Assembly (NCBI GenBank): GCA_016780065.1
Contig: JADHML010000004.1
Span: forward strand, 1-64,000
DNA from: Flavobacteriaceae bacterium
GTDB taxonomy: Bacteria > Bacteroidota > Bacteroidia > Flavobacteriales > Flavobacteriaceae
Direction of reading: 5' to 3'
DNA: 64,000 nucleotides
Part shown: positions 25,871 to 46,742 of the stretch, one piece after another
Layout of the letters: every line of letters starts with the position of its first letter
Numbering within the stretch: the first letter of the stretch is position 1
The notes under the pieces: model-generated
Told to the model about the DNA's origin: nothing
Seen by the model: only the letters and a program-made list of their open reading frames with translations
Databases searched by the model: none
Made by a program: the position numbers and the translations under genes

Positions 25871-25906
25871 GTGACATCATTTCTATTCATGTTAAACAAA
25901 CCAATA

Positions 25907-28888
25907 ATGAAACAAATTCTAAATTTAATTCTGATTTTAAACCTTGGGTTTTTGGGGTTTGCTCAGAATGTCTCAATTTCTGGTGTTATTTATGATGCCG
26001 ACACAAGTCAACCCTTACCTGGAGCTACCGTTCTAGTTGTTGGTACTAATAATGGCACTACCTCTGATTTTGATGGAAACTTTTCATTAGAAGCTGCAAA
26101 AGGGGCTTCTATCTCAGTTAATTATGTTGGGTTTAAAACACAAATACTTGTTGTTAATGACTCCAACCCGTTAACAATACAACTACTACAAGACAACAAA
26201 CTAGACGAAGTAATCGTAGTTGGTTATGGTACTCAAAAACGAAGCAATCTTGTAGGGTCTATTGCAACCATTGACGTTGAGAAAGCCACTCAGATTCCCA
26301 CTACCAATGTTACTGAGCTTTTACGTGGAAGGGCTGCTGGGGTACAAGTAAATCTTGGTGATGCACGCCCTGGGGGTTATTCTAACATTGTAATTAGAGG
26401 AAATGTTTCTGTAGCCGGAGGTAACAGTCCACTTATTATTGTAGACGGATTGCCCTATGATAATCTTAACGATATATCGCCTGATGATATATCAAGTGTT
26501 GAGATTTTAAAAGATGCTGCATCAACCGCAATTTATGGTGCTCGTGCTTCTAACGGAGTTGTTTTGGTTACCACCAAAAAGGCTAGAGAGGGTTACAAAA
26601 GCTTTAATTACTCTGCATACGTAACCACTCAAACCCTCACCAAGAACTTTGAAATGTATGACGCTCCTGGTTTTTTCAATTACCGCATGGATGCCTGGAG
26701 GGCTAGAACAGGAGTTCCTAACCCCCCTTTAAGTTTTGTATGGGATGACTTTGAACTAGAGTTTATTGAAAACCAAAATTTTGTTGATTGGGAAAGTTTG
26801 GCCCTCAACGATGCTTTGTTGACAAATCATTCTTTAAGTTATTCTTCTGGAACTGAAAAAACTCAAGTATATTCAAGTATAAACTACTTTTCACAAGACG
26901 GAATTATTCCAAATTCTGGATTTGACAGATTGCAATACAAATTAAACTTTAGCCAACAATTGACCGATCAGTTGAGCATGGAAGCGATAATCAATATTCA
27001 AAATGCCAATCAAAGTCGTGAAACAGGCGGTTTATTTCTTTCAAGTTTAAGCCCCATCGCCAAACCCTATGACGATAATGGAAATTTGGTAAAATATTAT
27101 TTTGGTGAATCAAACTCTGTTGCTGTAAATCCCTTGTGGGACCAAAGAGAATCTATTGATGAAACAGAGACCAATCTGACCGATTTTAGTTTGCGTTTGA
27201 ATTATCAGATATCACCAAAACTTTCATATTCATTTAAATCATTTTTCAGAAACCGAAACACCGACCAAGGGACTTATCGTTCTTCCTTGCATTCCTCTGG
27301 AGATGAAGGAAACAATGGAATTGGCGTGTTAATCGACACTCAGTACAAACAATTATTGATTGAGCACATCTTGAACTATGATATTCTAAAAAACGATATT
27401 CACAATCTTGATTTTACAGGGGTTCATGCTTATGACGAACAAAATTTTAAGTTCAATGAGCTAGTAAAATCTGATTTTGTAAATGATGCACTTTCGTACA
27501 ACGGTCTCGCCTCTGAATTACTTGCAAACAATCGTGACGTTTGGAGAAGGAGAGTTTTATCCTTTATGGGAAGGTTTCGCTACTCGTTTAAAGACAAATT
27601 CCTTCTTGAGTTTACAACGCGAGCGGACGGAGCGTCTGTATTTTCCGAAAACAACAAATGGGGTTTCTTCCCTGCAGTCTCTGTTGCATACAAATTTGAG
27701 GAAGATTTAGAAATAGATGCAATCGACCAACTCAAGCTCCGCCTAAGTTACGGTGCGACTGGAAATCAAGGAATCAACCCTTTAGAATCTCTTGGGGTCG
27801 CTGATTATAATCCATACGTTTTTGGAACTTCTACTGTAAGCGGTTCTTCTGCATCTTCTCGTCTTAGAAATCCAAATTTGAAATGGGAAACAACTACCAC
27901 TCTCAATGCGGGTGTTGATTTTGCGTTTCTCAACAATAAGATTAGAGGTACTTTTGAGTATTACAAAGCCAATACGACCGATCTTTTGTTGGACAGACAG
28001 TTGGCATCGTCAACTGGATATAGTGTGACACGTTTTAATGTTGGTGAACTTCAAAATACTGGCTTAGAATTATCACTTAACAATTCTATTATTCAAAAAA
28101 AGGATGTTTCATTTGACCTAGGATTTACTTGGTCTACAAATGAAAACGAAATCGTTGCATTGACTGGAGAAACTCAGGTTGATTCCGAAACGGGAGAAAC
28201 GTATTTTATCGACATCACAGAATCTAATGGAAGAAGGCTGTCCATAGGTCAATCTATAAACAACATATGGCTTCCAGAATATGCAGGAATTTATCAAGAA
28301 TCCGACTTTTTGGACGGCAGCCCTATAACACCTGAAGTGGGGGCAAAACCAGGTCACATTCGTGTAGTTGATCAAAATGGTGATGGAAAAATCGACGACG
28401 ATGACAATATATTCATAAACACTGATCCTGATTGGTTTGGATCTATTAATACCACTCTTAGAGTCAAAAATTTTGACATCTTCATGGACTGGTATATTGT
28501 GCAAGGTGTTACAAGAATCAACTCTGTGTTGTCTAACGGGGAGTTTTGGAAAGCATCGCTCAACGGGCCTGTGGTGCCCTATTATACCGATGCTAACCCA
28601 TCTACAGAATGGCCTAAAGCCAATGCGGCACCCGCTTGGTTAAAGCACTTGAACTCTTTTGCAGCTCAAGACGCTTCTTACATGCGCTTACGAACTTTAT
28701 CTGTTGGATATAATTTTGGGGAACGTTTAAATCAGCTCTTGAATACAACGAAGGGAAGATTGTACTTTACAGGAACAAACTTAATTACTGTAACAGACTT
28801 TTTATCATATTCTCCTGAGCAAGATTTAAGAGAGGGTGTATTCCCAGAAACATTAAATCTTACAGTTGGACTAAACCTAACATTTTAA
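25907..28888 (+). CDS. susC: SusC-like TonB-dependent glycan importer
   Basis: With the ATG at 25907 the protein has 993 residues and a clean signal peptide (MKQILNLILILNLGFLGFAQ). An in-frame start at 25871 would add 12 residues with no signal character. A carboxypeptidase-like beta-sandwich follows (ISGVIYDADTSQPLPGATVLV), then the TonB plug region with EVIVVGYGTQKR and the conserved SVEILKDAASTAIYGARASNGVVLVTTKK, then the 22-strand barrel ending in an aromatic (LTVGLNLTF). The next gene, susD, starts nine bases later. It should take up laminarin fragments across the outer membrane using TonB energy. Confidence 0.93.
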   Translation: MKQILNLILILNLGFLGFAQNVSISGVIYDADTSQPLPGATVLVVGTNNGTTSDFDGNFSLEAAKGASISVNYVGFKTQILVVNDSNPLTIQLLQDNKLDEVIVVGYGTQKRSNLVGSIATIDVEKATQIPTTNVTELLRGRAAGVQVNLGDARPGGYSNIVIRGNVSVAGGNSPLIIVDGLPYDNLNDISPDDISSVEILKDAASTAIYGARASNGVVLVTTKKAREGYKSFNYSAYVTTQTLTKNFEMYDAPGFFNYRMDAWRARTGVPNPPLSFVWDDFELEFIENQNFVDWESLALNDALLTNHSLSYSSGTEKTQVYSSINYFSQDGIIPNSGFDRLQYKLNFSQQLTDQLSMEAIINIQNANQSRETGGLFLSSLSPIAKPYDDNGNLVKYYFGESNSVAVNPLWDQRESIDETETNLTDFSLRLNYQISPKLSYSFKSFFRNRNTDQGTYRSSLHSSGDEGNNGIGVLIDTQYKQLLIEHILNYDILKNDIHNLDFTGVHAYDEQNFKFNELVKSDFVNDALSYNGLASELLANNRDVWRRRVLSFMGRFRYSFKDKFLLEFTTRADGASVFSENNKWGFFPAVSVAYKFEEDLEIDAIDQLKLRLSYGATGNQGINPLESLGVADYNPYVFGTSTVSGSSASSRLRNPNLKWETTTTLNAGVDFAFLNNKIRGTFEYYKANTTDLLLDRQLASSTGYSVTRFNVGELQNTGLELSLNNSIIQKKDVSFDLGFTWSTNENEIVALTGETQVDSETGETYFIDITESNGRRLSIGQSINNIWLPEYAGIYQESDFLDGSPITPEVGAKPGHIRVVDQNGDGKIDDDDNIFINTDPDWFGSINTTLRVKNFDIFMDWYIVQGVTRINSVLSNGEFWKASLNGPVVPYYTDANPSTEWPKANAAPAWLKHLNSFAAQDASYMRLRTLSVGYNFGERLNQLLNTTKGRLYFTGTNLITVTDFLSYSPEQDLREGVFPETLNLTVGLNLTF

Positions 28889-28897
28889 AAAACCAAG

Positions 28898-30526
28898 ATG
28901 AAAAATTTTCGATTACTTTATATAACCTTGACTTTTGCAGTAGTAACCTCTTGCTATCAAGATGACTTTCTAAAGGACGAGCTACTCACTAATAACTCTG
29001 TGGATTTTCTTTACAGCAGCTCTGAAGGGATTTCGAACGCTGTCGTGGGACTCTATTCTTTAAATCGTGAGCCTTATGTCCGTGATTGGTTTAACGGTGC
29101 CATTCCTTTAATCCTTCAGGCTAAGAGTGATATTGCCGCCGGAGTTGATGGAGAAATTTCTCTCTTTAGCAACTGTTTTTGGGGTTGTGGTCTTGATGGA
29201 GATTATGGAACCGAAGCAGCATTTGGCTTCTTCTGGGGACACAATTATAAGATAATAGACATTACCAACTCTATAATCCAAGGAGGTGATGCACTTGTGC
29301 AGGCTGGGAACTCAAGTAGTGAGCTCGCTGTAAGTCTGGCAGAAGCCAGAACTTTTAGAGCTCATGCTTATTTCACTCTGTACAGAATGTTTCAAAACAT
29401 TTATGTCAAAATGGAACCTACCACGCCAGAAACGGCCTTTGATAGGGTTTCAAAAAAGTCATCCAAAGACGAAATCTTCAACTTGATTCGCGAAGACCTA
29501 AAGTATGCCAGCGACAATCTTTCTTATACAACATCTCAATTTGGACGGTGGAACAAAGGAGCTGTCGATCACTTACGAGCAAAAGTTGAAATGTGGTACG
29601 GAGATGACGCAATTGATGATGAAGGAACTACAGGCTATGAAGCAGCAGCTGAAATAGTTGACGATATTCTTGCAAACGGACCCTATGCTTTGGTTGATCC
29701 TGAGCAAGTTTTTGCTGGAGAGTTGATGCATTCAGAGACGCTTTTTGCCATCAATTTCGAAAAGAACACCATCGGAGGTGGAGACTGGCACCAGATGAAC
29801 TGGCAGACAGTAGCACATTATTCCTCCGAAAAAGGTCTAAAACAGTCTGTTGAAAACGGAGGTGATGGTTTTGGTTTCATTTCCCTCAACCCTTATGCTG
29901 TCGATTTGTTGAACGAGAACCCAGCAGACAAAAGAATTGGCAACTATTATATTTTTGAATACTTATATAATGATCCTGCTACACTTCCTGCTGGAAAAAA
30001 CATTGGAGACCCTTTTGATAGATACGACAGGGACGACGAAGATGAATTTTTCGAATACTACAAAACCCAGGCTCCTGGTGTTATAAAGTTTTTGGATACT
30101 AATGCTGAGCCTACAGACCGTAATCACTTTAAAAATATTATGATTTATCGTTTGGCTGAAACTTATTTGCTTGGTGCAGAAGCTCATTTTGAAGAAGGTA
30201 ATTCTGCAAAGGCTCTTGATTATTTGAACGAGGTTCGTACAAGAGCTGGAATTCCGGCAGCAACGACTGTTTCCATTGAAACTATTTTTGAAGAAAGAGC
30301 CAGAGAGCTCGCTTTTGAAGGACAACGCTGGTATACTTTAAAAAGAAAGGGACTTTTGTTTGATTATCTGATTGATCACATGAATTCACCACTTCTTAAT
30401 GAATATTACGAAAATGCACATGTCAACCCAGTAGAGGTGTACGAACCCCACATGGTAAACCTTAAAATTCCACAAGGAGTGTTGGATTTATTAGGTGAGG
30501 GCTACCCCCAAAATACGGGCTATTAA
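28898..30526 (+). CDS. susD: SusD/RagB-like glycan-binding lipoprotein
   Basis: The 542-residue lipoprotein has lipobox VTSC (Cys19) and the SusD/RagB fold: N-terminal helices with ISNAVVGLYSLNREPYVRDW, a central LAEARTFRAHAYFTLYRMF block, and the C-terminal KALDYLNEVRTRAGIPA and EERARELAFEGQRWYTLKRKG blocks. It lids the SusC barrel and binds glycan. The four-gene group susC-susD-SGBP with the following terminator is one transcription unit. Confidence 0.92.
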   Translation: MKNFRLLYITLTFAVVTSCYQDDFLKDELLTNNSVDFLYSSSEGISNAVVGLYSLNREPYVRDWFNGAIPLILQAKSDIAAGVDGEISLFSNCFWGCGLDGDYGTEAAFGFFWGHNYKIIDITNSIIQGGDALVQAGNSSSELAVSLAEARTFRAHAYFTLYRMFQNIYVKMEPTTPETAFDRVSKKSSKDEIFNLIREDLKYASDNLSYTTSQFGRWNKGAVDHLRAKVEMWYGDDAIDDEGTTGYEAAAEIVDDILANGPYALVDPEQVFAGELMHSETLFAINFEKNTIGGGDWHQMNWQTVAHYSSEKGLKQSVENGGDGFGFISLNPYAVDLLNENPADKRIGNYYIFEYLYNDPATLPAGKNIGDPFDRYDRDDEDEFFEYYKTQAPGVIKFLDTNAEPTDRNHFKNIMIYRLAETYLLGAEAHFEEGNSAKALDYLNEVRTRAGIPAATTVSIETIFEERARELAFEGQRWYTLKRKGLLFDYLIDHMNSPLLNEYYENAHVNPVEVYEPHMVNLKIPQGVLDLLGEGYPQNTGY

Positions 30527-32238: not shown

Positions 32239-33378
32239 ATGGCTAAATCCTTTTTTTCTTTTATTCTAACAATTTTAATTTCATCGAACGTTTCTTGTTC
32301 TAAAGATTCAAATTCAGATGTAAATCTTCGAATCGAACTTGGAGAGAATGGACTAGTCAATGCTACAGCAACTGCTGATGGAGCACTTAGTTACCGTTTT
32401 TCATTTGAAGACAATGCGGTGTTTGAAAACACCACAGGAACCTATGAATACACTTATTCAAATAAGGGAACTTATCTTATAGGTGTATGGGCTTTTTTTG
32501 ATCAACAAAAGACATCTTATTCCTATCAATCTGTTGAAATTGAAATTACCAATGCTGCCGGGGACTCCAACAACAATGGACCTATCGACACAAGTGAAAC
32601 GGTCACTGAATATTCAAATTACAGTTTGGTATGGAATGATGAATTTAATTACGACGGTGCGCCGTTAGATTCGCGTTGGCATTTACAATACAAACCGATC
32701 CTCGGTTGGGGGTGGGCTAACGGAGAACAACAGCACTATACCAGACGTCGAGATAACTCCTATGTAAGCGATGGGACACTCAAAATTGTCGCTAAAAGAG
32801 AAACTTATTCCTCTTCTGGAGTGACCAAATCATACACATCTGCTCGCTTAAACTCTAAGTATCAAATCGAATATGGAAGAATAGATGTCCGCGCCAAGTT
32901 ACCATCCAAGGGAGGTACATGGCCTGCGATTTGGACTTTAGGTACGAATGTCAACGAATTGGGGAATTACCATGGTAATAGTGATGGAGATGTAGGTTGG
33001 CCACGATGTGGGGAAATAGACATTTTAGAACAAAGAGGTTCCGAAAAAGATATTTTGTTGGGAACATTTCATTGGGGTGATACTCAACCTCCTTATAATT
33101 ATGGCTCTTATGGACAATCCAAAAGCACTTCGGCTTTAAACATTTCGGATGTAACTACGGACTTCCATTTATATTCACTTGTTTGGACCCGAACCAGCTT
33201 GAAAATTTACGTTGACAACAAATTTATAGTCTCTTTAAACAACAGCGCTAGTGTTCCGTTTGATAATCCACATTATCTTATTTTGAACCTTGCAATGGGT
33301 GGTGATTTAGGAGGAACCATACCAAGTACTTTTGATGAGGATGTTATGGAGATTGATTACGTCCGTTTTTACCAATAA
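32239..33378 (+). CDS. GH16 laminarinase lipoprotein
   Basis: The 379-residue lipoprotein has lipobox NVSC (Cys20), a PKD-like beta-sandwich at about 30-105 (ALSYRFSFEDNAVFEN), and a GH16 domain from about 125 with GEIDILE, giving E259, D261 and E264. Its domain is close to the GH16 at 21085: both share GTWPAIWTLG and NEQQHYT or GEQQHYT patterns. The lipid anchor suggests action at the outer-membrane surface, feeding oligosaccharides to SusCD. It sits directly after the terminator and has no strong promoter of its own that I can see. Confidence 0.9.
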   Translation: MAKSFFSFILTILISSNVSCSKDSNSDVNLRIELGENGLVNATATADGALSYRFSFEDNAVFENTTGTYEYTYSNKGTYLIGVWAFFDQQKTSYSYQSVEIEITNAAGDSNNNGPIDTSETVTEYSNYSLVWNDEFNYDGAPLDSRWHLQYKPILGWGWANGEQQHYTRRRDNSYVSDGTLKIVAKRETYSSSGVTKSYTSARLNSKYQIEYGRIDVRAKLPSKGGTWPAIWTLGTNVNELGNYHGNSDGDVGWPRCGEIDILEQRGSEKDILLGTFHWGDTQPPYNYGSYGQSKSTSALNISDVTTDFHLYSLVWTRTSLKIYVDNKFIVSLNNSASVPFDNPHYLILNLAMGGDLGGTIPSTFDEDVMEIDYVRFYQ

Positions 33379-33540: not shown

Positions 33541-35085
33541 ATGACCAAAAAAACTCTTTTTATCGCTTTTGTAGTCTCGCTTGGGGGTTTTCTCTTTGGT
33601 TTTGATGCAGGTATTATTTCTGGAGTCATGTCCTATGCAGGCCCAGAATTTAATCTAAACGACACACAAACAGGTTGGGTGGTAAGTTCCCCCTCCTTTG
33701 CAGCCATGATAGCTATGTTGGTAGCTGGCCGCTTAAGCGATCGAGTGGGTCGAAAAAAAATATTACTAGTCGTTGCGTTTCTATACGCATTTTCTGCAAT
33801 TACTTCTGCTTATGCACTTTCTTATGAAGCCTTGTATTTGGCGCGGATGGTCGGAGGCCTGGCCTTTGGAGCCGCATTGGTCTTAGCACCTACATACATT
33901 GCAGAAATATCAACCGCTGAAAATCGAGGTACACTCGTTTCTGTACAGCAACTCAATATTGTCTTAGGTTTTTTTGCAGCCTTCTTAAGCAATTATTACT
34001 TTAATCAAAGTTACAGTTCAGGGGTGTCATCTCTGAATGAGCAAAATATTTGGCGTTGGATGTTAGGCGTAGAATTTTTGCCCGCCATCCTTTACTTTTT
34101 ACTATTGTTTTTTGTGCCAAAAAGTCCTAGATGGCTGTATACTCAAGGTCATGTTTCTCAAGCACAATCGGTATTAGAAACCATTCATGGATCTAAACAA
34201 GCAGCTTTAGAAATCCAAGGGATCGAAAAAAATATTACTGAAAATACCCAACAAAAGAAAACCTCCATTCGTGAATTGCTCCACCCGTCTTTGCGATTTA
34301 TTATGCTGGTGGGCCTAACCTTAGGGATCCTCCAACAGGTAACAGGGATCAATGCCATTTACTTTTATGCTACGTCCATATTCAAACAAACAGGTATTGG
34401 TACTGATGCGGCTTTCTCCACAGGGGTTTTATTGAGTTTTACAACAGTGGTTTTCACTCTGATTGCTATGTACTTAGTGGATCGCATGGGCCGAAGACCT
34501 CTTCTTGTCGTTGGTATGACAGGTATTGCTGTGAGTTTGCTTGTGTGTGCTTATGGTTTCAACCAAGCCAAATACCAACTTACTGCTCAAGAAATTACAA
34601 ACTTAAAGGGTATTGAATCTTTCAAACTAGCTGAATTTCAAGATCAAACTTATTACAGTGATGTAGCCTTTAAAAATGACATCAAAGAAGCCATAGGCAG
34701 TCAAGTTTATGCCAAACATGAAGGCGCTATTTTAGAAGCTGCCATTGAGATGAATGCCACCCTTGTCCTTATTGGAATTTTAGGCTTTATCGCATGCTTC
34801 GCTTTTTCTTTGGGCCCCGTGATGTGGGTCATGCTTTCTGAACTTTTTCCGAACCGTTATCGTGGATTAGCGATTGGCGCCATCGGCTTTGTCAACTCAT
34901 TTGCCAGTTGGACTATTCAACAAGTTTTTCCTTGGGAGTTGTCAAATCTAGGCAGCGCTCTTACGTTTTTGATATATGGCTCTATCGCAGCTGTTGGCGT
35001 TCTGTTGTTTGTTCGAATATTGCCTGAAACCCGTGGAAAATCCTTAGAAGAAATTGAAAATGAACTTGTGGCCAAGACCGCATAA
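33541..35085 (+). CDS. Sugar porter family MFS transporter
   Basis: The 514-residue protein has twelve membrane helices and the sugar porter signatures GRLSDRVGRKK after helix 2, PKSPRWL before the central loop, the QQVTGINAIYFYA stretch in helix 7, DRMGRRP after helix 8 and PETRGKSLEEIE at the end. A loop of about 60 residues before helix 10 (KGIESFKLAEFQDQTYYSDVA) is larger than in E. coli XylE but usual in Bacteroidota homologues. It likely imports glucose across the inner membrane with H+. It starts a run of tightly spaced genes reaching 46742. Confidence 0.88.
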   Translation: MTKKTLFIAFVVSLGGFLFGFDAGIISGVMSYAGPEFNLNDTQTGWVVSSPSFAAMIAMLVAGRLSDRVGRKKILLVVAFLYAFSAITSAYALSYEALYLARMVGGLAFGAALVLAPTYIAEISTAENRGTLVSVQQLNIVLGFFAAFLSNYYFNQSYSSGVSSLNEQNIWRWMLGVEFLPAILYFLLLFFVPKSPRWLYTQGHVSQAQSVLETIHGSKQAALEIQGIEKNITENTQQKKTSIRELLHPSLRFIMLVGLTLGILQQVTGINAIYFYATSIFKQTGIGTDAAFSTGVLLSFTTVVFTLIAMYLVDRMGRRPLLVVGMTGIAVSLLVCAYGFNQAKYQLTAQEITNLKGIESFKLAEFQDQTYYSDVAFKNDIKEAIGSQVYAKHEGAILEAAIEMNATLVLIGILGFIACFAFSLGPVMWVMLSELFPNRYRGLAIGAIGFVNSFASWTIQQVFPWELSNLGSALTFLIYGSIAAVGVLLFVRILPETRGKSLEEIENELVAKTA

Positions 35086-36480: not shown

Positions 36481-39400
36481 ATGCATATTGGCCAAACAGA
36501 ACGTAAGGTTAATTCACGTCAAACAGACGGAGACTTAGTAAAGATTGAAGGAGAATGGTTCTACAAAATCAGTAATGTAGACAACATGCCTCCATTTTTT
36601 ATGAGTGTTGTCAGCGATGCCAACCATTGGATGTTTATCGCAAGCAATGGAGGTCTATCAGCAGGTAGAAAAGATTGTAATCAGTCTTTATTTCCATACT
36701 ATACTGTCGATAAAATCACAGAAACATCCGAAACAACTGGCAGTAAAACCATTTTAAGAGTAGAACAAGGGGATAAAACTTTCCTGTGGGAACCCTTTTC
36801 TGTTTACACCAACCACTTGTACGACCTTGAAACCAACTTATTTAAAAGCGAGTATGGGAATACTTTGATTTTTGAACAAATCAATCATGATTTGAATCTC
36901 TCGTTTCGTTATCAGTGGAGTTCCAGTAACAAGTTTGGTTTTGTTCGTCAAGCTACGCTGACCAATTTGGGCGATCACTCTCGTGTAATACATGTTTTGG
37001 ATGGGATCCAAAACTTAGTCCCCTATGGAGTTGAGGCCGATTTACAGAACAGCAAAAGCAACCTGGTCGATGCATATAAGAAAAGCGAGCTCGAAAGAGA
37101 CTTAGGATTGGGTATTTATGCTTTAAGTGCCATTATTGTGGACCGTGCAGAACCTAGCGAAGCGCTCAAGGCAACCACCGTGTGGTCAATCGGTCTTGAA
37201 AAACCAACTTATTTACTCTCTTCTTTTCAATTAGAAGCATTTCGTAGAGGTCAAGCAGTCACAGAAGAATGGGAAAATAAAGGGGAGAAAGGCGCCTATT
37301 TTGTTTCAGACACCCTGACTCTAGATACAGGTGCTGAAAAATCTTGGTATGTTGTTGCCGAAGTCAACCAGTCTATGGTGGGCATTCGCACCTTAGCCGA
37401 TGCCATCAACAGTAAAAACATCACAGAACAATTACACGCTGATATAAAATCGGGCACTGACAATCTTATTCAGCTTTGTGCTGCATCTGATGGTCTTCAA
37501 AAAACAGAAGACAAGCGTACCATCATGCGCCATTTTTCTAACACCCTATTTAATATTATGCGTGGTGGAATTTTTGACGCCAACTATCAAATAGAAAAGG
37601 CAGATTTTTTAGAATACTTACAAAAAGCAAACAAAGAAGCTTTTGCACAACATAAACAATCTCTCGATCAACTCGATGATATTTTTGACTTGGGTCAATT
37701 GACAGAAACCATCAAAAACATCCCTTCTGTTGCCATTCAACGTTTAAGCACAGAATATTTGCCTTTAAAATTCAGCCGTCGTCATGGAGACCCGAGTCGT
37801 CCTTGGAACTGGTTTTCTATCAATACACAAAATGAAAATGACGGATCAAAAATTTTAGATTACCAAGGGAACTGGCGCGATATTTTCCAAAATTGGGAAG
37901 CTCTAGCACATGCCTACCCTACTTTTATTGAGGGCATGATTTTCAGGTTTTTAAACGCTTCAACTTTTGATGGCTACAACCCTTATCGAGTTACAAAAGA
38001 TGGATTTGATTGGGAAATTATTGAACCCCACGACCCATGGTCATATATTGGTTATTGGGGAGATCATCAGATCATCTACCTACTCAAATTTTTAGAATTT
38101 TCAGAAAAACACCATCCTGGTAAGATTGCATCTTTCTTGCAAGAAAACCGTTTTGTATACGCACACGTTCCTTATGTCATCAAATCTTATGAAGACATAG
38201 TAGCCGATCCAAAAGACACCATCATTTTTGACAAACCTTTGCATAATCAAATCGACCGTCAGAAATCCCAATTGGGTGCCGATGGCGCTTTGCTTAAGGA
38301 TCCTAACGGAGCGGTCTATCATGTCAATATGTTAGAGAAGTTGTTGGTTATGGTTTTAGCAAAAATGTCAAATTTTGTTCCTGAAGCAGGAATATGGCTT
38401 AACACCCAGCGACCCGAATGGAACGATGCCAACAACGCTTTAGTTGGAAATGGCACCTCCATGGTGACTTTGTACTATATGCGGCGATTCTTTAAGTTTT
38501 TTGACAATTTGATTGACTCAGTGGCGTTCGATGAAACTTCGGTCTCGAAAGAACTACAAATGTTTTTCCAGCAAATTGCTCAGAACTTATTGCGCTTCGA
38601 ATCTTTGCTCTCAGATCAGATTAGTGATGCGGATCGAAAAACGGTCGTGGATGCATTGGGTCAGGCAGGCAGTCAATACAGAAACCAAATTTATAAAAAC
38701 GGGTTTTCTGCAGAAGGAGCGTCTATCAGTACATCTGATTTGAAAGAATTTGTTAGAGTGAGTTTGGCATTTATTGACCATTCGATTGCTGCCAACAAAC
38801 GCAATGATGGCTTATATCATGCGTATAACCTAATTGCATTTGAAGAAAACCAAGAGATCTCTATCGCCTACCTATCCGAAATGTTAGAAGGTCAGGTAGC
38901 TGTTTTAAGCTCTGGCTATCTTTCATCTGAAGAAGCACTCGAAGTGCTCGATCAAATGCGCGCAAGTAAGCTTTATCGTCCGGATCAAAACAGTTATATG
39001 TTATATCCTGACAAATCCTTGCCTCGTTTTTTTGAAAAAAACAACATTCCAAAAACTGCAGTGGATGGCTCTAGGCTGTTAACACAATTGTTAGAAAACA
39101 ACAACAATCAGATCGTACAGCAAGACAGCTCAGGAGCCTACCACTTCAACGGAAACTTTACAAACGCCAACAGCCTGAAAGAAGCTTTGGGCAATTTATC
39201 AGATCAATATGCGGCGATGGTTGCCGAGGAACAAAACCAGTTGATGAACCTTTTTGAGGATCTTTTTGACCACAAATCGTTTACCGGTAGGTCTGGAACA
39301 TTCTTTGGCTTTGAAGGCCTAGGATCTATCTACTGGCACATGGTTTCAAAATTGGCTTTGGCCGTACAAGAAGCATTGTGGAGTTCTATTCATGATAAAT

Positions 39401-39918
39401 CTTCTGAAGAAATTACCAAAGCACTTCGCGATCATTATTATCAAGTGGTAGATGGCATTGGTGCTCATAAGACCCCTCAAGTATATGGGGCGTTTCCAAC
39501 AGACCCATACTCTCATACACCTGCAGGAAGAGGGGCTCAACAGCCTGGCATGACAGGACAAGTCAAAGAGGATATCCTTTGCCGTTGGGGCGAGTTTGGG
39601 GTGTCTGCCCATGACGGATCTTTGCAGTTCGACCCGCAGATTGTTCGTGAGGATGAGTTTTTGAAGCAAGAAGAAGTTTTTGTTTACTATGACGTTCACA
39701 ACAACAAACAATCGATTGTAATTCCTTCGCAGGCACTTTGTTTTACATATTGCCAGATACCGGTTGTCTATCACAAAAACCATTCAAAAACAGGGATCGA
39801 ATTGACATTTACTGATGGTCAAAACCAGCTACTAGAAACTCATCAACTTACCGAAGCACATTCCGAAAAGGTATTCGATCGAGATGGACAAATCAAACAA
39901 ATACAAGTTTATTTTTAA
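36481..39918 (+). CDS. Putative beta-1,3-glucan phosphorylase, clan GH-Q-like (GH149/GH161-like)
   Basis: The 1145-residue protein has no signal peptide and so is cytosolic. The first 300 residues are beta-rich, in the style of the sandwich domain of GH94-like phosphorylases, followed by a long helical region suited to an (alpha/alpha)6 barrel. Motifs include RHGDPSRPWNW, IGYWGDHQ (Y525-W526-G527-D528) and PEWNDANNALVGNG (W647-N648-D649), the last resembling the catalytic WND stretch of GH94 relatives. GH149 and GH161 enzymes of about this size phosphorolyse beta-1,3-glucans to glucose-1-phosphate. The call rests on size, motifs and context; the exact family is unproven. Confidence 0.5.
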   Translation: MHIGQTERKVNSRQTDGDLVKIEGEWFYKISNVDNMPPFFMSVVSDANHWMFIASNGGLSAGRKDCNQSLFPYYTVDKITETSETTGSKTILRVEQGDKTFLWEPFSVYTNHLYDLETNLFKSEYGNTLIFEQINHDLNLSFRYQWSSSNKFGFVRQATLTNLGDHSRVIHVLDGIQNLVPYGVEADLQNSKSNLVDAYKKSELERDLGLGIYALSAIIVDRAEPSEALKATTVWSIGLEKPTYLLSSFQLEAFRRGQAVTEEWENKGEKGAYFVSDTLTLDTGAEKSWYVVAEVNQSMVGIRTLADAINSKNITEQLHADIKSGTDNLIQLCAASDGLQKTEDKRTIMRHFSNTLFNIMRGGIFDANYQIEKADFLEYLQKANKEAFAQHKQSLDQLDDIFDLGQLTETIKNIPSVAIQRLSTEYLPLKFSRRHGDPSRPWNWFSINTQNENDGSKILDYQGNWRDIFQNWEALAHAYPTFIEGMIFRFLNASTFDGYNPYRVTKDGFDWEIIEPHDPWSYIGYWGDHQIIYLLKFLEFSEKHHPGKIASFLQENRFVYAHVPYVIKSYEDIVADPKDTIIFDKPLHNQIDRQKSQLGADGALLKDPNGAVYHVNMLEKLLVMVLAKMSNFVPEAGIWLNTQRPEWNDANNALVGNGTSMVTLYYMRRFFKFFDNLIDSVAFDETSVSKELQMFFQQIAQNLLRFESLLSDQISDADRKTVVDALGQAGSQYRNQIYKNGFSAEGASISTSDLKEFVRVSLAFIDHSIAANKRNDGLYHAYNLIAFEENQEISIAYLSEMLEGQVAVLSSGYLSSEEALEVLDQMRASKLYRPDQNSYMLYPDKSLPRFFEKNNIPKTAVDGSRLLTQLLENNNNQIVQQDSSGAYHFNGNFTNANSLKEALGNLSDQYAAMVAEEQNQLMNLFEDLFDHKSFTGRSGTFFGFEGLGSIYWHMVSKLALAVQEALWSSIHDKSSEEITKALRDHYYQVVDGIGAHKTPQVYGAFPTDPYSHTPAGRGAQQPGMTGQVKEDILCRWGEFGVSAHDGSLQFDPQIVREDEFLKQEEVFVYYDVHNNKQSIVIPSQALCFTYCQIPVVYHKNHSKTGIELTFTDGQNQLLETHQLTEAHSEKVFDRDGQIKQIQVYF

Positions 39919-39919
39919 T

Positions 39920-41164
39920 ATGAAACCCCTCCTTAAATCTAGCGTACAAATTAATTTTCTTCTTATGCTAACAGCTTGTATCTCGGCTTGTACTACGACT
40001 GAATCAGATCCGACAGCGGCGGAGATACTAGGCAATCCCGACTATCAGGCCATTTCTTACGGAGGATATAGACAGTCCACTCGTGATTCAGTTCCTAGTG
40101 TGGATCAAATTAAGGATGATATGCGCATTCTCTCTGCCATAGGGGTCAAGGTGTTGCGTACCTACAACACGGAGTTGGCACAATTGCCTCATTTGCTCGA
40201 TGCCATCACAGAGATGAAACAAGAGGATCCTCATTTTGAAATGTATGTCATGGTAGGCGCATGGATCAATTGCAAGGATGCATGGACGGATAATCCTGAC
40301 CATACACTAGGAGACGAGGCCTATAACGCAGCAGAAATACAACGGGCCGTAGCCTATGCCAAGCAGTACCCAGAGATTGTCAAATTCATTGCTGTGGGCA
40401 ACGAGGCCATGGTACACTGGGCATCGGGTTATTTCGTACCGCCTGGAGTGATACTTAAGTGGGTCAATCACCTTCAAGATTTGAAGAAACAAGGTGATTT
40501 ACCAATGGATTTATGGGTTACTAGTTCGGACGACTTTGCGTCATGGGGTGGAGCTTCTTCAGTCTACCACACCGAAGACCTAAACCGTCTTATACATGCA
40601 GTAGATTTTATTTCGATGCATACCTATCCCTTTCATAACTCTCATTACAATCCTGATTTTTGGTACAATAGAGAGCCAGAATGGTCGACGATCGAACAAA
40701 TCGATTCTGCGATGGTTCGTGCAGCAGAGTTTGCCGCTGGTCAATACCAAGATGTCAAAAACTATATGTTGAGCATTGGAGCCAACAAACCCATTCATAT
40801 AGGCGAAACAGGGTGGGCTACAAAGTCCAATGGTTTATATGGAGCAGAAGGGTCTCAAGCTGCGGACGAATATAAAGCCAAAAAATTTTACGATAACATA
40901 CGCCAGTGGACAAACACGAACGGAGTTTCCTGTTTTTACTTTGAAGCTTTTGACGAACAGTGGAAGGATGCTGAGAATTCCTTAGGCTCAGAGAATCATT
41001 TTGGACTGATCAATTTACAGGGTCAAGCTAAATATGTGATTTGGGATTTGGTAGAGGCAGGGACTTTCGACGGGCTTATGCGTGATGGAAAGCCGATTAC
41101 AAAAACGTTTGATGGCGACGAGACCAAGCTGTTATCCAATATAAATCCACCCCCAACCCTATAA
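39920..41164 (+). CDS. GH17 endo-beta-1,3-glucanase lipoprotein
   Basis: The chosen start is the ATG at 39920, one base after the previous stop, which gives a lipoprotein signal ending ISAC (Cys24); an in-frame start 36 bases earlier would bury it. The 414-residue protein has the GH17 barrel with acid/base motif VGNEAM (Glu162) and nucleophile motif GETGWAT (Glu296), and FEAFDEQWKD near the end. GH17 enzymes cut linear beta-1,3-glucan stretches of laminarin. As a lipoprotein it acts outside the cytosol, unlike the two GH17 genes at the end of the locus. Confidence 0.88.
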   Translation: MKPLLKSSVQINFLLMLTACISACTTTESDPTAAEILGNPDYQAISYGGYRQSTRDSVPSVDQIKDDMRILSAIGVKVLRTYNTELAQLPHLLDAITEMKQEDPHFEMYVMVGAWINCKDAWTDNPDHTLGDEAYNAAEIQRAVAYAKQYPEIVKFIAVGNEAMVHWASGYFVPPGVILKWVNHLQDLKKQGDLPMDLWVTSSDDFASWGGASSVYHTEDLNRLIHAVDFISMHTYPFHNSHYNPDFWYNREPEWSTIEQIDSAMVRAAEFAAGQYQDVKNYMLSIGANKPIHIGETGWATKSNGLYGAEGSQAADEYKAKKFYDNIRQWTNTNGVSCFYFEAFDEQWKDAENSLGSENHFGLINLQGQAKYVIWDLVEAGTFDGLMRDGKPITKTFDGDETKLLSNINPPPTL

Positions 41165-41167
41165 AAA

Positions 41168-43429
41168 ATGCGTTTCACCCAATTAAAACTAAGTCTTTTG
41201 AGTTTGCTTTTATTTTCTTGCGCCAATGAGTCTGCCGAAGAGAGCAAAATCAATGCGATATTGTCTCAAATGACTTTAGAGGAAAAAGCGGGTCAAATGC
41301 TCAACCTCGGTTTGCCAAGTGTGTTGACTGGAGACTATTGGGATGAACGTGAAGAGGTGGTGTTTGACAGTGTACGTTTCAAAAAGTACATTGAAAAACT
41401 CAATGTTGGGTCTATCCACAACACGCCTCACCCTCATTTTCTTCCAGACGCCGATACATGGCACTACATTATCAAAACCATTCAAGAGGCCTCACTCAAA
41501 AACACTCGTTTGGGGATTCCGGTAGTATACGGGATTGATAACATACATGGTGCAAATTATGTCAAAGAATCCGTGATGTTTCCTCACCAAATCGGTTTGG
41601 CCGCATCGCGCAATACGGACTTAGTTGCTAGAACTGCCGAAATTACCTCTTATGAATCACGCGCAGCCTCCATGCCTTGGACCTATAATCCCAATGCGGA
41701 TGTGTCTTTTAGCCCACTTTGGGGTCGTATTGCAGAAAGCTTTGGAGAAGATCCATATGTAGTATCTCAAATGACCAATGCTTACATTAGAGGTTCACAA
41801 GGCAGCACACTTTCCGACTCCACTCGTACAGCGGTTTGTGTAAAACACTATTTGGGCTATGGAGCAGGTTCGAACGGAAAAGACCGTGCGAACGCGATCA
41901 TTCCCGAAGGTATGTTGCGACAGTACTTTATACCACCATTTGAAGAGGCTGTCAAATCTGGGGCCATGAGCGTTATGGTTAGCTCCAACTCTGTCAATGG
42001 AGTCCCATGCCACGCGAATAGCTATTATATCAATGACATACTAAAAGGAGAATTGGGCTTTGAAGGCGTTGTTTTGTCTGATTTTAGTGATGTTGAATTT
42101 CTCGTAGAAGCCCACGAAGTAGTGGACAACAAAAAAGAAGCTACATGGATGGCAGTCAATGCAGGGTTGGACATGCTGATGAATCCTTATGACGCAGATG
42201 TTGTTGACTATATAGTAGAAGGTGTAGAATCAGGCACCATTACAAAAGAAAGAATCGACGATGCTGTTCGAAGAGTTTTGCGACTGAAGTTTCGCTTAAA
42301 CCTTTTTGAAAAACCATATAACGACCCTACGAATTTTCCTAACCTCGGTAGTGATGCGCATGTAGAGGTCAACTACCAAGCGGCATCAGAATCCCTGACC
42401 TTGTTGAAAAATGAAGGTGTTTTGCCTTTAAAAGCCGGGAAAAAGATATTGGTCACTGGGTATGCTGCCAACTCTATCAACGTACTCAACGGTGCATGGT
42501 CACGCACTTTCTTAGGGCAAATGACACAGTTTAATGACCCTACCAAAGCCACTATTTTTGAGGCCATCAAGCAAACCAACGGAACAAAAAACACCTTGTT
42601 TGGTCAAGGAACGGATTATCTCACTGATGTCAACATAGATCAGGTGGTCAAAAGAGCCAAATATGCAGACCAGATTGTGGTGTGTGTAGGGGAGTTGCCA
42701 GCGACTGAAAAACCTTCAGACGTAAATGAACTAGACTTACCGCAAGCCCAACAAGATTTGATTAAAAGACTTAGCGCCTTAGGCAAACCGATTGTTTTGG
42801 TCATGGTGCAGGGACGTCCTCGAATCATTCGTCAGATTGAACCCTTGGTAGATGCCATTCTCATGGCGTACCTTCCTGGGCAAGAGGGGGGAAGAGCCAT
42901 TGCGGATGCACTCTTTGGCAAAACCAATCCCAGCGGTAAATTGCCCTACACTTATCCAAAATTTACTGGAAACATATTGCCTTACTATCACAAGAAAACG
43001 GACGCACGTGATGTCGATTGGGGTTACAATGGTTTTTATCCTCAGTATCCCTTTGGACATGGTCTGTCTTACACCACTTTTTCATTGTCTAACATGCAGT
43101 TAGACACAGACACCATCCAAGGAGATGGAGCTCTTAGACTACAAGCAACGTTGACCAACACAGGCAGTCGGAAAGGCAAAACAGCAGTAGCGTTGTATGT
43201 CAAAGACCTGATTGCATCTGTGGCACCAGATGTTAATAAACTGATTGCTTTTCAAAAACACGAGCTAGAGCCAGGCGAGCAAAAAACCATTTTATTCGAA
43301 GTTGCTGCCAAAGACCTCAAGTTTATCGACGCCAAAAACCAATGGGTCGTAGAGCCTGGAGCATTTACATTATCACTGAGTATTGATCCTGACAAACCCC
43401 TAAAAAAAGATATTTTCTACAAGAACTAA
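41168..43429 (+). CDS. GH3 beta-glucosidase lipoprotein
   Basis: The 753-residue protein has lipobox FSC (Cys18) and the three-domain GH3 layout: barrel with VCVKHYLGYGAGSNGKDRAN, nucleophile Asp305 in VVLSDFSD, an alpha/beta sandwich (LLKNEGVLPLKAGKKILVTG, GQEGGRAIADALFGKTNPSGKLP) and a fibronectin III-like tail (GRKGKTAVALYVKD). It releases glucose from the non-reducing ends of beta-glucooligosaccharides, most likely in the periplasm. It follows the GH17 gene by three bases, so translation is likely coupled. Confidence 0.92.
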   Translation: MRFTQLKLSLLSLLLFSCANESAEESKINAILSQMTLEEKAGQMLNLGLPSVLTGDYWDEREEVVFDSVRFKKYIEKLNVGSIHNTPHPHFLPDADTWHYIIKTIQEASLKNTRLGIPVVYGIDNIHGANYVKESVMFPHQIGLAASRNTDLVARTAEITSYESRAASMPWTYNPNADVSFSPLWGRIAESFGEDPYVVSQMTNAYIRGSQGSTLSDSTRTAVCVKHYLGYGAGSNGKDRANAIIPEGMLRQYFIPPFEEAVKSGAMSVMVSSNSVNGVPCHANSYYINDILKGELGFEGVVLSDFSDVEFLVEAHEVVDNKKEATWMAVNAGLDMLMNPYDADVVDYIVEGVESGTITKERIDDAVRRVLRLKFRLNLFEKPYNDPTNFPNLGSDAHVEVNYQAASESLTLLKNEGVLPLKAGKKILVTGYAANSINVLNGAWSRTFLGQMTQFNDPTKATIFEAIKQTNGTKNTLFGQGTDYLTDVNIDQVVKRAKYADQIVVCVGELPATEKPSDVNELDLPQAQQDLIKRLSALGKPIVLVMVQGRPRIIRQIEPLVDAILMAYLPGQEGGRAIADALFGKTNPSGKLPYTYPKFTGNILPYYHKKTDARDVDWGYNGFYPQYPFGHGLSYTTFSLSNMQLDTDTIQGDGALRLQATLTNTGSRKGKTAVALYVKDLIASVAPDVNKLIAFQKHELEPGEQKTILFEVAAKDLKFIDAKNQWVVEPGAFTLSLSIDPDKPLKKDIFYKN

Positions 43430-43452: not shown

Positions 43453-44871
43453 TTGAAAAAAACAGTCGCCAACACAGTCCCCTTGAGCAAGAAAATTTTC
43501 TTTTGACTTGGAATGCTTGCCATGCAAATGTTCCCGGCCGCGCTTGGGGTATTCATGGTCGTTTTGATTCAAGACTTTGGTTTTGATCCACTGATGTGGG
43601 GGTTGATTTTCTTTTTGCCTAGGGTGATCGATGCAGTGACAGACCCTGTGATGGGTTTTATCTCTGACAACACCAAATCCAAATGGGGTAGAAGAAGACA
43701 ATATATTTTTGTGGGAGCGCTTATTATGGGGGCTTCTTTTATAGCGATGTGGCAAATCTATCCTGAGAACGAACTGAACTATAACTTTTGGTACTTTTTA
43801 CTGCTTTCTGTTTTGTTTTATTTGGGACTCACTATTTTCAGTGTGCCTTATGTGGCTCTGGGATACGAAATGAGTACCGACTTTCACGAACGCACCCGAA
43901 TCATGGCAGTGGCACAGTGGATCAGTCAGTGGGCATGGGTAATCGTTCCATGGTTTTGGATCATCATATATGACGACAGTTGGTTTAGCTCTCCAGAATC
44001 AGGAACCCGAACGCTCGCCATCTATGTGAGTGTATTCTGTACGCTTTTGGCTTTGGTGCCTGCACTCTTTATCAAAGGAAAATCGTCATTGAATGATGAC
44101 ACCTTGGTTTCTATTACATTCAATAACATAAAAAACAATTTATCGACTTTGGTCAAAGGATTTAAGGACGCTGCTAACAACAGGCCTTTTGTACGCCTTT
44201 GTGCCGCTACGTTTTTTATTTTCAATTCTTTCCAGACCATTGCAGCATTTTCTTTTTTCATTATAGTCTACTATTTATTCCAAGGTGATGCAAATGCTGC
44301 TGGTGTGTGGCCTACACTACATGGTTCAGTAGGAGCTTTGTTAACCACTTTTTTAGTCATTCCGATTGTCACCAAAATGTCTGAGCGTTTGGGGAAGAAA
44401 AAAACATTTATGATTTCACAGGCCATTTCCTTACTGGGGTATGTTTTGTTTTGGTTCTTATTTATCCCTGGCAAGCCCTACGCCTTCTTGTTTGCTCTTC
44501 CTTTATTTTCGTTTGGAATAGGTGGCTTATTTACTCTTATGATGAGCATGACTGCAGATACTTGTGATTTGGACGAACTCAATAACGGACTGCCTAGAAA
44601 AGAAGCCACATTTGGGGCTTTGTATTGGTGGATGGTCAAGTTTGGCACTGCACTGGCAGGTTTATTTAGCGGGATCATCATGAGTGCTGTAGGATTCGAT
44701 ACATCCTTACCCGAGCAAACAGATACTGCCATGACGGGACTTCGTATTTTTTACACCGTACTTCCTGTGATAGGAACTTGCATTGCGATCTATGTGATGA
44801 AAAATTATGAAATAAACGAATCGAGCGCTAAAGAAGTCAGTGAGATTCTTGCAAAACGTAACAATAAATAA
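43453..44871 (+). pseudogene. GPH family sugar:cation symporter with in-frame TGA
   Basis: The reading frame from the TTG at 43453 gives MKKTVANTVPLSKKIFF and then TGA at 43504-43506, before LGMLAMQMFPAALGVF. Homologues have FF-(S or G)-LGMLANQMFPAA here, so one base change made the stop. Everything after it is intact: 452 residues from the ATG at 43513, twelve membrane helices, RVIDAVTDPVMGFISDN and SKWGRRRQYI. Internal initiation at 43513 would lose only the cytosolic N-terminus and could still work. GPH transporters move oligosaccharides or sugars with H+ or Na+. Sequencing error is not excluded. Confidence 0.65.
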
Positions 44872-44879
44872 ACATTTCC

Positions 44880-45770
44880 ATGTCTTATAGAAAAGAAAAA
44901 CATTTGTCTCTTGCCGGGTTTTCACAATCCAAACACAACCAAGAAACACTACAAGAAATTTCGGGGACGTTATTAAAGTCCAAAATGCACGGAATTTGCT
45001 TTAGCCCCTACGATCAAGGACAAAACCCAGGAGACGAATTGAGTGAGGCTCAAATACGTCGTAAATTGGAGTGTATTGCTCCATATACCCAATGGATTCG
45101 CACATTCTCTTGTACGGAGGGCAACGAGCAAATCCCCGTTTTAGCCAAATCATATGGGCTCAAAACCTTAGTAGGTGCCTGGTTAAGCGATGATTTAGAG
45201 CAAAACGAGAAAGAGTTAGAAGGGCTCATTAAGTTGTGCCGTGAAGGTCATGTCGATATTGCCGCTGTAGGTAACGAGGTAATGTATAGAAAAGAGCTCA
45301 GCGAGCAGCAACTCATTGACTATATACTTCGCTTTAAAGAAGCGGTTCCCAACATAGAGGTAGGTTATGTAGATGCTTACTATGAATTTTCAAGCAGACC
45401 CAAAATCACGGAAGCATGCGATGTGATTCTAGCCAATTGCTACCCATACTGGGAGGCTTGCCACATTGATTATTCACTCGTCTATATGAAGCAGATGTAT
45501 CACCATGCTAAAGATGTTGGTGGAGGTAAAAAAGTAATCATTACCGAAACAGGATGGCCCAGCCAAGGAACGAGCCTTGGAGGCGCACAACCCTCTTACG
45601 AAAATGCACTTCAATATTATATCAATGCACAGCTTTGGTCAAAAGAAGACAACATCGAAATGTTTTATTTCTCTGCCTTTGACGAGCCCTGGAAAGTAGG
45701 TGCTGAAGGAGACGTAGGAGCTTATTGGGGCCTCTGGGACAAAGACGAAAAACTGAAGTTTAACGCCTGA
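44880..45770 (+). CDS. GH17 family enzyme without signal peptide (first)
   Basis: The 296-residue protein begins MSYRKEKHLSLAG and has no signal peptide, so it should stay in the cytosol. The GH17 motifs are VGNEVM (acid/base Glu133), TETGWPSQG (nucleophile Glu223) and FSAFDEPWK. It starts eight bases after the transporter gene. With imported laminari-oligosaccharides as substrate, it could shorten them for the phosphorylase, or act as a transglycosylase, a known activity of some GH17 members. It is diverged from the next gene, so duplication is old. Confidence 0.82.
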   Translation: MSYRKEKHLSLAGFSQSKHNQETLQEISGTLLKSKMHGICFSPYDQGQNPGDELSEAQIRRKLECIAPYTQWIRTFSCTEGNEQIPVLAKSYGLKTLVGAWLSDDLEQNEKELEGLIKLCREGHVDIAAVGNEVMYRKELSEQQLIDYILRFKEAVPNIEVGYVDAYYEFSSRPKITEACDVILANCYPYWEACHIDYSLVYMKQMYHHAKDVGGGKKVIITETGWPSQGTSLGGAQPSYENALQYYINAQLWSKEDNIEMFYFSAFDEPWKVGAEGDVGAYWGLWDKDEKLKFNA

Positions 45771-45794: not shown

Positions 45795-46742
45795 ATGGAT
45801 TACACCAAGGTACTTTCAATCCCCAAAGGCATGGCCATATGCTATTCCGGGTTTAGAGAGGGTCAAAGACCCGGTGCGGAGTATCCTGAGCGAGCACAAA
45901 TCGAAGAAGATCTTCACATCGTAAAGAATCATTGGGCTTACATTAGGCTTTACAGTTGTGATCCACACGCCAAGACCGTACTCGAGGTGATTAGAGATGA
46001 AAAACTTCCTCTGAAAGTCATGTTGGGCGCCTATTTAGAGGGTGAAGTTTCCAACCCCCATTGTCCGTGGGGTGGAACGTTTAGCGATGAACAAATTGCC
46101 AAAAACAAAAAAATCAATCAACAACAAGTGGATACGCTCATTCGTTGGGCCAATCAGTATCAAGAGGTCATTTTTTCATTGGCTGTGGGTAATGAGTCGT
46201 GTGTCGACTGGTCAGGAAACATGGTCTCTGTAGATGCCATGATTGACTATGTAAATCAAGTAAAAGCAGTTACTAAACAACCCATTACATTCTGCGAAAA
46301 TTACGCTCCTTGGTTAGATAAGCTGGCTCCCTTGGTTGAAGTGTTAGACTTTATATCGATTCACACCTACCCTCTCTGGGAAAACATTAGTATCGATCAT
46401 GCTTTGGCACATACCAAAAGCAATTACCAGCAGGTGTCTGAGCGGTATCCTGAGAAGCTGGTTGTGATCACAGAAGCCGGTTGGGCCACCAAAGCCAATG
46501 GCCGTGGTTTTCCCCAAGCCCATGCCAATGTGGTTTTTCAAAAGATGTATTACGACGCGCTCTGCCGATGGACCGACGAAAACAATATCCTCACCTTTGT
46601 GTTTGAAGCTTTCGACGAACCATGGAAAGGCTCTTCGGACCCTAATGAACCCGAAAAGCATTGGGGGTTGTTTTATGAAGATCGTACACCCAAAATGGCT
46701 CTTGAAGCTTTTCCTGGCTATAAAACCAACGTGCATTCCTGA
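45795..46742 (+). CDS. GH17 family enzyme without signal peptide (second)
   Basis: The 315-residue protein also lacks a signal peptide. GH17 motifs are VGNESCVDW (Glu134), TEAGWATKANG (Glu227) and FEAFDEPWKGSSDP. It is closer in its C-terminal motifs to the lipoprotein GH17 at 39920 than to the enzyme just upstream. It starts 24 bases after that gene and ends the glucan locus. Why two cytosolic GH17 enzymes are kept side by side is unclear; different preferences for chain length or beta-1,6 branches are possible. Confidence 0.82.
   Translation: MDYTKVLSIPKGMAICYSGFREGQRPGAEYPERAQIEEDLHIVKNHWAYIRLYSCDPHAKTVLEVIRDEKLPLKVMLGAYLEGEVSNPHCPWGGTFSDEQIAKNKKINQQQVDTLIRWANQYQEVIFSLAVGNESCVDWSGNMVSVDAMIDYVNQVKAVTKQPITFCENYAPWLDKLAPLVEVLDFISIHTYPLWENISIDHALAHTKSNYQQVSERYPEKLVVITEAGWATKANGRGFPQAHANVVFQKMYYDALCRWTDENNILTFVFEAFDEPWKGSSDPNEPEKHWGLFYEDRTPKMALEAFPGYKTNVHS

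Follow-up and report, generated by a model that had tools for sequence, protein, structure and literature searches.

A GH149 gene in a laminarin utilization locus

We analysed a 64,000-nucleotide stretch of a Flavobacteriaceae genome (contig JADHML010000004.1 of assembly GCA_016780065.1; hereafter the window), in which a predicted beta-1,3-glucan phosphorylase of glycoside hydrolase family 149 (GH149) is encoded among genes for laminarin breakdown (Table 1). The phosphorylase gene is one intact plus-strand frame, running from the ATG at 36481 to a stop that ends at 39918, and encodes 1145 amino acids (aa), as an earlier note made from the letters alone had described. So many consecutive open codons have a chance of about 3e-32 at the base composition of the window. 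Inside the gene, the single minus-strand frame that was translated is broken by many stops, and the lone minus-strand open reading frame (ORF) of at least 120 aa in the ORF list (145 aa, 39346-39783) carries no evidence of being a gene.

The protein matches NF058639, the NCBI equivalog model for GH149 1,3-beta-D-glucan phosphorylases, with 1737.9 bits (cut-off 1150) over residues 12-1144, or 1133 of its 1145 residues. This match was the only one in NCBIfam at a threshold of 0.001, and no Pfam family, among which are the GH94 models, matched at the same threshold. In a PDB search the best hit was Pro_7066 (6HQ6, 6HQ8; 1475.8 bits, residues 16-1143), to which 652 of 1128 residues are identical (57.8%, counted from the printed identities); the alignment spans the regions of both inserted domains of Pro_7066 (Dom 1 and Dom 2), with one 2-residue gap in each. 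The earlier note had proposed a phosphorylase of GH149 or GH161 type, to be checked by a profile search against GH149, and that search, run here, upholds the proposal in its GH149 form. GH161, GH94 and GH149 all belong to clan GH-Q and have catalytic and donor-site residues in common (PMC6771811, PMC6484121), and the next PDB chains are indeed a GH161 enzyme (9qqk, 43.8 bits) and 9h8v, labelled cellobiose phosphorylase (42.7 bits), followed by a fourth match, to GrpE, that is noise (E 0.91). Set against the GH149 scores, these matches are so weak that we rejected both families, and we give practically no credence to a GH161 or GH94 enzyme with another minimum chain length.

Beta-1,3-glucan phosphorylase activity has been proven for Pro_7066 and EgP1, and Pro_7066 phosphorolyses beta-1,3-gluco-oligosaccharides in vitro (PMC5827456). 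Judged from its sequence, the window gene almost certainly encodes a GH149 enzyme of this activity that acts on imported laminarin fragments. The sequence is new but its kind is known, as GH149 genes in the laminarin loci of Bacteroidota have already been published (PMC5827456, PMC6484121, PMC6246565, PMC13188888).

We predict that the protein is cytosolic. Export signals were judged by a hydropathy scan (highest 11-residue mean within the first 45 residues) rather than by SignalP. The GH149 protein peaks at just 0.62, which agrees with the earlier note in giving no evident export signal, whereas the GH16, GH158, GH17A, GH3, SusD and 534-aa proteins reach 2.3-3.4.

Table 1. Features of the GH149 gene and of the surrounding gene row (window coordinates)
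Feature	Position	Strand	Basis
Regulator of the locus, Y_Y_Y and LuxR-type (GerE) domains	22896..25691	+	
SusC-type TonB-dependent outer-membrane transporter	25871..28888	+	TIGR04056, 763.4 bits
SusD-type outer-membrane glycan-binding lipoprotein	28898..30526	+	profile match, hydrophobic N-terminus
Putative surface glycan-binding lipoprotein, 534 aa	30575..32179	+	position and lipobox-like N-terminus only
GH16 endo-beta-1,3-glucanase (laminarinase-like), probably exported	32239..33378	+	4bq1, 288.5 bits
Sugar-porter MFS transporter, probably for monosaccharides	33541..35085	+	TIGR00879, 321.3 bits (cut-off 237.8)
GH158-type glycosidase (probably beta-1,3-glucanase), probably exported, 445 aa	35097..36434	+	9oro, 300.7 bits
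GH149 beta-1,3-glucan (oligo)phosphorylase, predicted, 1145 aa	36481..39918	+	NF058639, 6HQ6, no hydrophobic N-terminus
Arg466-Asp467, RD motif of the sugar-1-phosphate site (Pro_7066 R470, D471)	37876..37881	+	alignment; roles from PMC6771811
YWGDHQ, residues 525-530, identical in Pro_7066	38053..38070	+	alignment
Trp647-Asn648-Asp649, WND catalytic loop (Pro_7066 W651, N652, D653)	38419..38427	+	alignment; PMC6771811
Asn837, replacing stacking Tyr841 of the Pro_7066 laminarihexaose surface site	38989..38991	+	alignment
Glu945, donor-site glutamate (Pro_7066 E951)	39313..39315	+	alignment
His953, predicted phosphate-recognition histidine (Pro_7066 H959)	39337..39339	+	alignment
GH17 laminarinase (GH17A)	39884..41164	+	6fcg, 541.3 bits
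GH3 beta-glucosidase-like enzyme, probably exported	41168..43429	+	8va3, 549.3 bits
MFS_2 (GPH-type) inner-membrane transporter	43513..44871	+	PF13347
GH17 without evident signal peptide	44880..45770	+	closest solved chains labelled beta-1,3-glucanosyltransferase
Second GH17 without evident signal peptide	45795..46742	+	profile match, hydropathy scan

The row from 22896 to 46742 is, by its gene content, a laminarin polysaccharide utilization locus (PUL), for beta-1,3-glucanases and a transporter are encoded in it together with a SusC/SusD pair. Profile and PDB matches confirm the GH16, GH17 and GH3 neighbours that the earlier note had listed. Directly upstream of the GH149 gene lies a GH158 gene that the note had left unnamed. 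Its product resembled a GH2 fragment on a Pfam impression, which was replaced by GH158 after the PDB search; its best chain, 9oro, is labelled glycoside hydrolase family 158, and 6pal, labelled uncharacterized, follows with 232.4 bits. Downstream, the GH17A frame counted from 39884 overlaps the end of the GH149 gene by 35 bases. The likelier GH17A start is the in-frame methionine at 39920, just past the GH149 stop, which offers a better lipoprotein signal. The 534-aa protein found no match in Pfam or NCBIfam at 0.001 or in the PDB at E 1; relatives of it occur in 34 of 80 related GH149 loci, and it is a candidate laminarin surface-binding protein. Upstream of the regulator there is a second GH16 gene (21085-22818), whose product carries an F5/8-type C domain and also a Por secretion tail, which points to probable export through the type IX system.

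The core of genes around GH149 is general among relatives, and GH158 and GH3 are rarer. Neighbours were counted by tblastn (E 1e-10) in the 49 loci of at least 21 kb among the 80. MFS_2 relatives are found in 46 of these, GH16 and GH17A in 45 each, GH17B in 37 and the 534-aa protein in 28, followed by the regulator (19), the sugar porter (10), GH3 (9) and GH158 (5); the count for GH17C was discarded, since many of the matches land on the GH17A gene. Within the genus, GH149 is followed by GH17A in some genomes (loci L090-L092, L094 and L095) and by GH3 in others (L089 and L093). MFS_2 and GH17 are fused in 16 of the 67 related loci with an MFS_2 match, separate in 45 and cut by the locus end in 6.

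GH149 itself was detected in 11 of the 13 genus genomes, nine times over the cut-off and twice by partial matches below it. A full-length open frame is present in eight (the window's included), partial matches in three and no match in two, in incomplete assemblies (1.0-1.7 Mb, 58-86% complete). In a wider sample of relatives, 18 of 40 genomes encode GH149 (16 over the cut-off), as do 7 of the 24 whose completeness is 90% or more and whose contamination is 5% or less.

Active site and surface site

The roles of individual GH149 residues, as described for Pro_7066 in PMC6771811, could be transferred to the window protein by alignment. The WND and YWGDHQ stretches that had drawn the attention of the earlier note are both present, and Asp649 within WND, the counterpart of Pro_7066 D653, is the predicted catalytic residue. 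Seven active-site residues (R466, D467, W647, N648, D649, E945 and H953) are unvaried in all 80 related loci and in all 93 rows of a larger alignment that includes those loci.

Conservation is lower at the surface site to which laminarihexaose binds in Pro_7066. Only three of its eight residues are kept (E982, Y993 and R1062), two are changed conservatively (K831 to R, E990 to D) and three are not (E838 to P, Y841 to N, E994 to Q), so that the site in the window protein departs from the laminarihexaose surface site of Pro_7066. In a quick tree of 56 rows, it forms a single group with ten other rows (support 100; hereafter the clade), on a long branch of 0.67 changes per column; two of the 11 clade rows are identical proteins. 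Several of the changes follow the clade. The Y841 position holds N or K in 11/11 clade rows and Y in 76/83 others, the K831 position R in 11/11 and K in 75/83 others, and the E994 position retains E in 4/11 clade rows versus 80/83 others. At the E990 position the clade has K, Q or D, and E or D occurs in 77/83 other rows; at the E838 position E is retained in the remaining clade rows bar one; and Y993 is kept in all 11. The D984 and P834 of the window protein are common outside the clade (28/83 and 25/83, respectively) and thus not clade-specific.

The change in the surface site has no bearing on membership in GH149, because this site is not conserved throughout the family (PMC6771811, the only paper that our literature search found on the surface site in GH149). 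The altered site in the clade is a refinement of that published picture. The long branch and the five replaced residues might also be taken as signs that the enzyme now uses a different donor, acceptor or linkage, or has become inactive. This is highly improbable given that all seven active-site residues checked are unvaried and that the frame is open over its full length in eight of the 13 genus genomes.

Phosphorolysis and glucose phosphorylation

In the pathway that we propose, GH16, GH158, GH17 and GH3 enzymes outside the cell and in the periplasm would cut laminarin, SusC/SusD would move the pieces over the outer membrane, and entry into the cytosol would be through MFS transporters, for glucose and for short laminari-oligosaccharides, the latter probably by way of the MFS_2 protein. 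Within the GH149 enzyme, Asp649 would protonate the bridging oxygen, and phosphate, held close to Arg466 and His953 at the donor position, would attack the terminal glucose with inversion, so that alpha-glucose 1-phosphate would be released unit by unit until glucose remains. By homology to Pro_7066 and EgP1, the substrates would be beta-1,3-gluco-oligosaccharides with a degree of polymerization (DP) of 2 and up (PMC5827456). A phosphoglucomutase-type enzyme would then convert glucose 1-phosphate to glucose 6-phosphate, and every glucose of an imported chain except the last would therefore enter glycolysis without ATP. In favour of this step, a gene for a 579-aa protein of the phosphohexomutase family is present at another place in the window's genome. 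By established biochemistry, phosphorolysis would save one ATP per bond. From the properties of the respective families we infer the transport roles, the reaction with its inversion and chain-length range, the energy saving and the direction in the cell.

Several observations weigh against this account of the gene. SusC and SusD relatives were found in just 13 and two of the 49 loci, respectively, as counted with SusC, SusD (6-11 kb upstream) and the regulator lying near or beyond the 10-kb flank that was fetched; proteins of the SusC/SusD type also diverge fast. At the surface site, five of the eight residues are not those of Pro_7066. The 579-aa phosphohexomutase scores below the cut-offs of all curated NCBIfam models, which makes it a putative phosphoglucomutase at most. 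Finally, the sequence would be compatible with a substrate shift, as considered above, and with net synthesis. For the latter, the GH149 enzyme would run mainly towards beta-1,3-glucan from glucose 1-phosphate: the reaction is reversible, EgP1 and Pro_7066 build chains of up to DP 12 and 11, respectively, in vitro (PMC5827456), and the closest solved chains to the signal-less GH17 at 44880-45770, the one of the two such proteins that was compared with solved structures, are labelled beta-1,3-glucanosyltransferase. Yet the genes around GH149, with SusC/SusD and glucanases that are probably exported, form a locus for degradation, and high cytosolic phosphate normally favours breakdown, which makes synthesis as the main direction very unlikely.

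Neither a ROK glucokinase nor Glk (PF02685) was found in any of the 13 genus genomes at their 58-86% completeness. Their absence is not special to the genus, because in a sample of the bacterial family ROK occurs in just 26 of 80 genomes and PF02685 in seven. A search for hexokinase PF00349 gave no match anywhere, controls included, and is therefore uninformative. On contig C2 of the window's genome, the one genus genome that the search for BadF covered, we identified a 283-aa BadF/NagK-type kinase (locus L128, 1267-2118, minus strand), which scores 26.3 bits against PF01869, below the Pfam cut-off of 31.5. It adjoins gapA and pfkA, the latter running to the locus end, and among the 30 top-scoring BadF loci of the family sample, which include this one, 25 have relatives of both genes nearby. 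The idea of a genus without any glucose kinase is weakened by this kinase beside gapA and pfkA and by the family-wide rarity of ROK and Glk. The BadF-type protein is probably the hexose kinase of the window's genome and may be the unrecognised glucokinase of many family genomes that lack ROK or Glk; a literature search joining glucokinase, BadF and Flavobacteri found nothing.

We offer one further conjecture, which we consider unlikely as a whole: in this genus, GH149 could be the main entry of laminarin glucose into sugar phosphate, its remodelled surface site perhaps tuned to short MFS-imported chains, with free glucose entering only via the putative BadF-type kinase. The finding places a phosphorolytic laminarin route in a marine genus with assemblies of 1.0-1.7 Mb and leaves knowledge of the GH149 enzyme family unchanged.

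Comparison with known systems

The closest characterized relative of the window protein is Pro_7066, with 57.8% identity, the same seven active-site residues and both inserted domains covered; it differs at five of the eight laminarihexaose surface-site residues. GH161 (PapP, PMC6484121; 9qqk) is likewise a clan GH-Q family of beta-1,3-glucan phosphorylases, for which phosphorolysis is reported to require a DP of at least 3, but it is not close, with 43.8 bits as compared with 1475.8 for GH149. The GH94 laminaribiose phosphorylase shares the catalytic aspartate and the WND and RD motifs and is described as specific for the disaccharide (PMC6771811), and no Pfam model matched the window protein at 0.001.

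At the level of the locus, GH17A closely resembles 6fcg (541.3 bits), which we take to be FbGH17A of Formosa. The Formosa laminarin PULs also group GH16, GH17, GH3 and GH149 near TonB receptors and SusD-like proteins; according to the same account, FbGH17b is fused to an MFS transporter and a GH30 enzyme participates (PMC6246565), whereas in the window the MFS_2 and GH17 genes are unfused, with 8 bases between them, and a GH158 gene belongs to the row. The laminarin PULs described for Muricauda likewise contain GH16, GH149, MFS and two GH17 enzymes, the second without a signal peptide, but carry GH30_1 and GH2 where the window has GH158 and GH3; some Muricauda clusters have GH3 in place of GH149 (PMC13188888).

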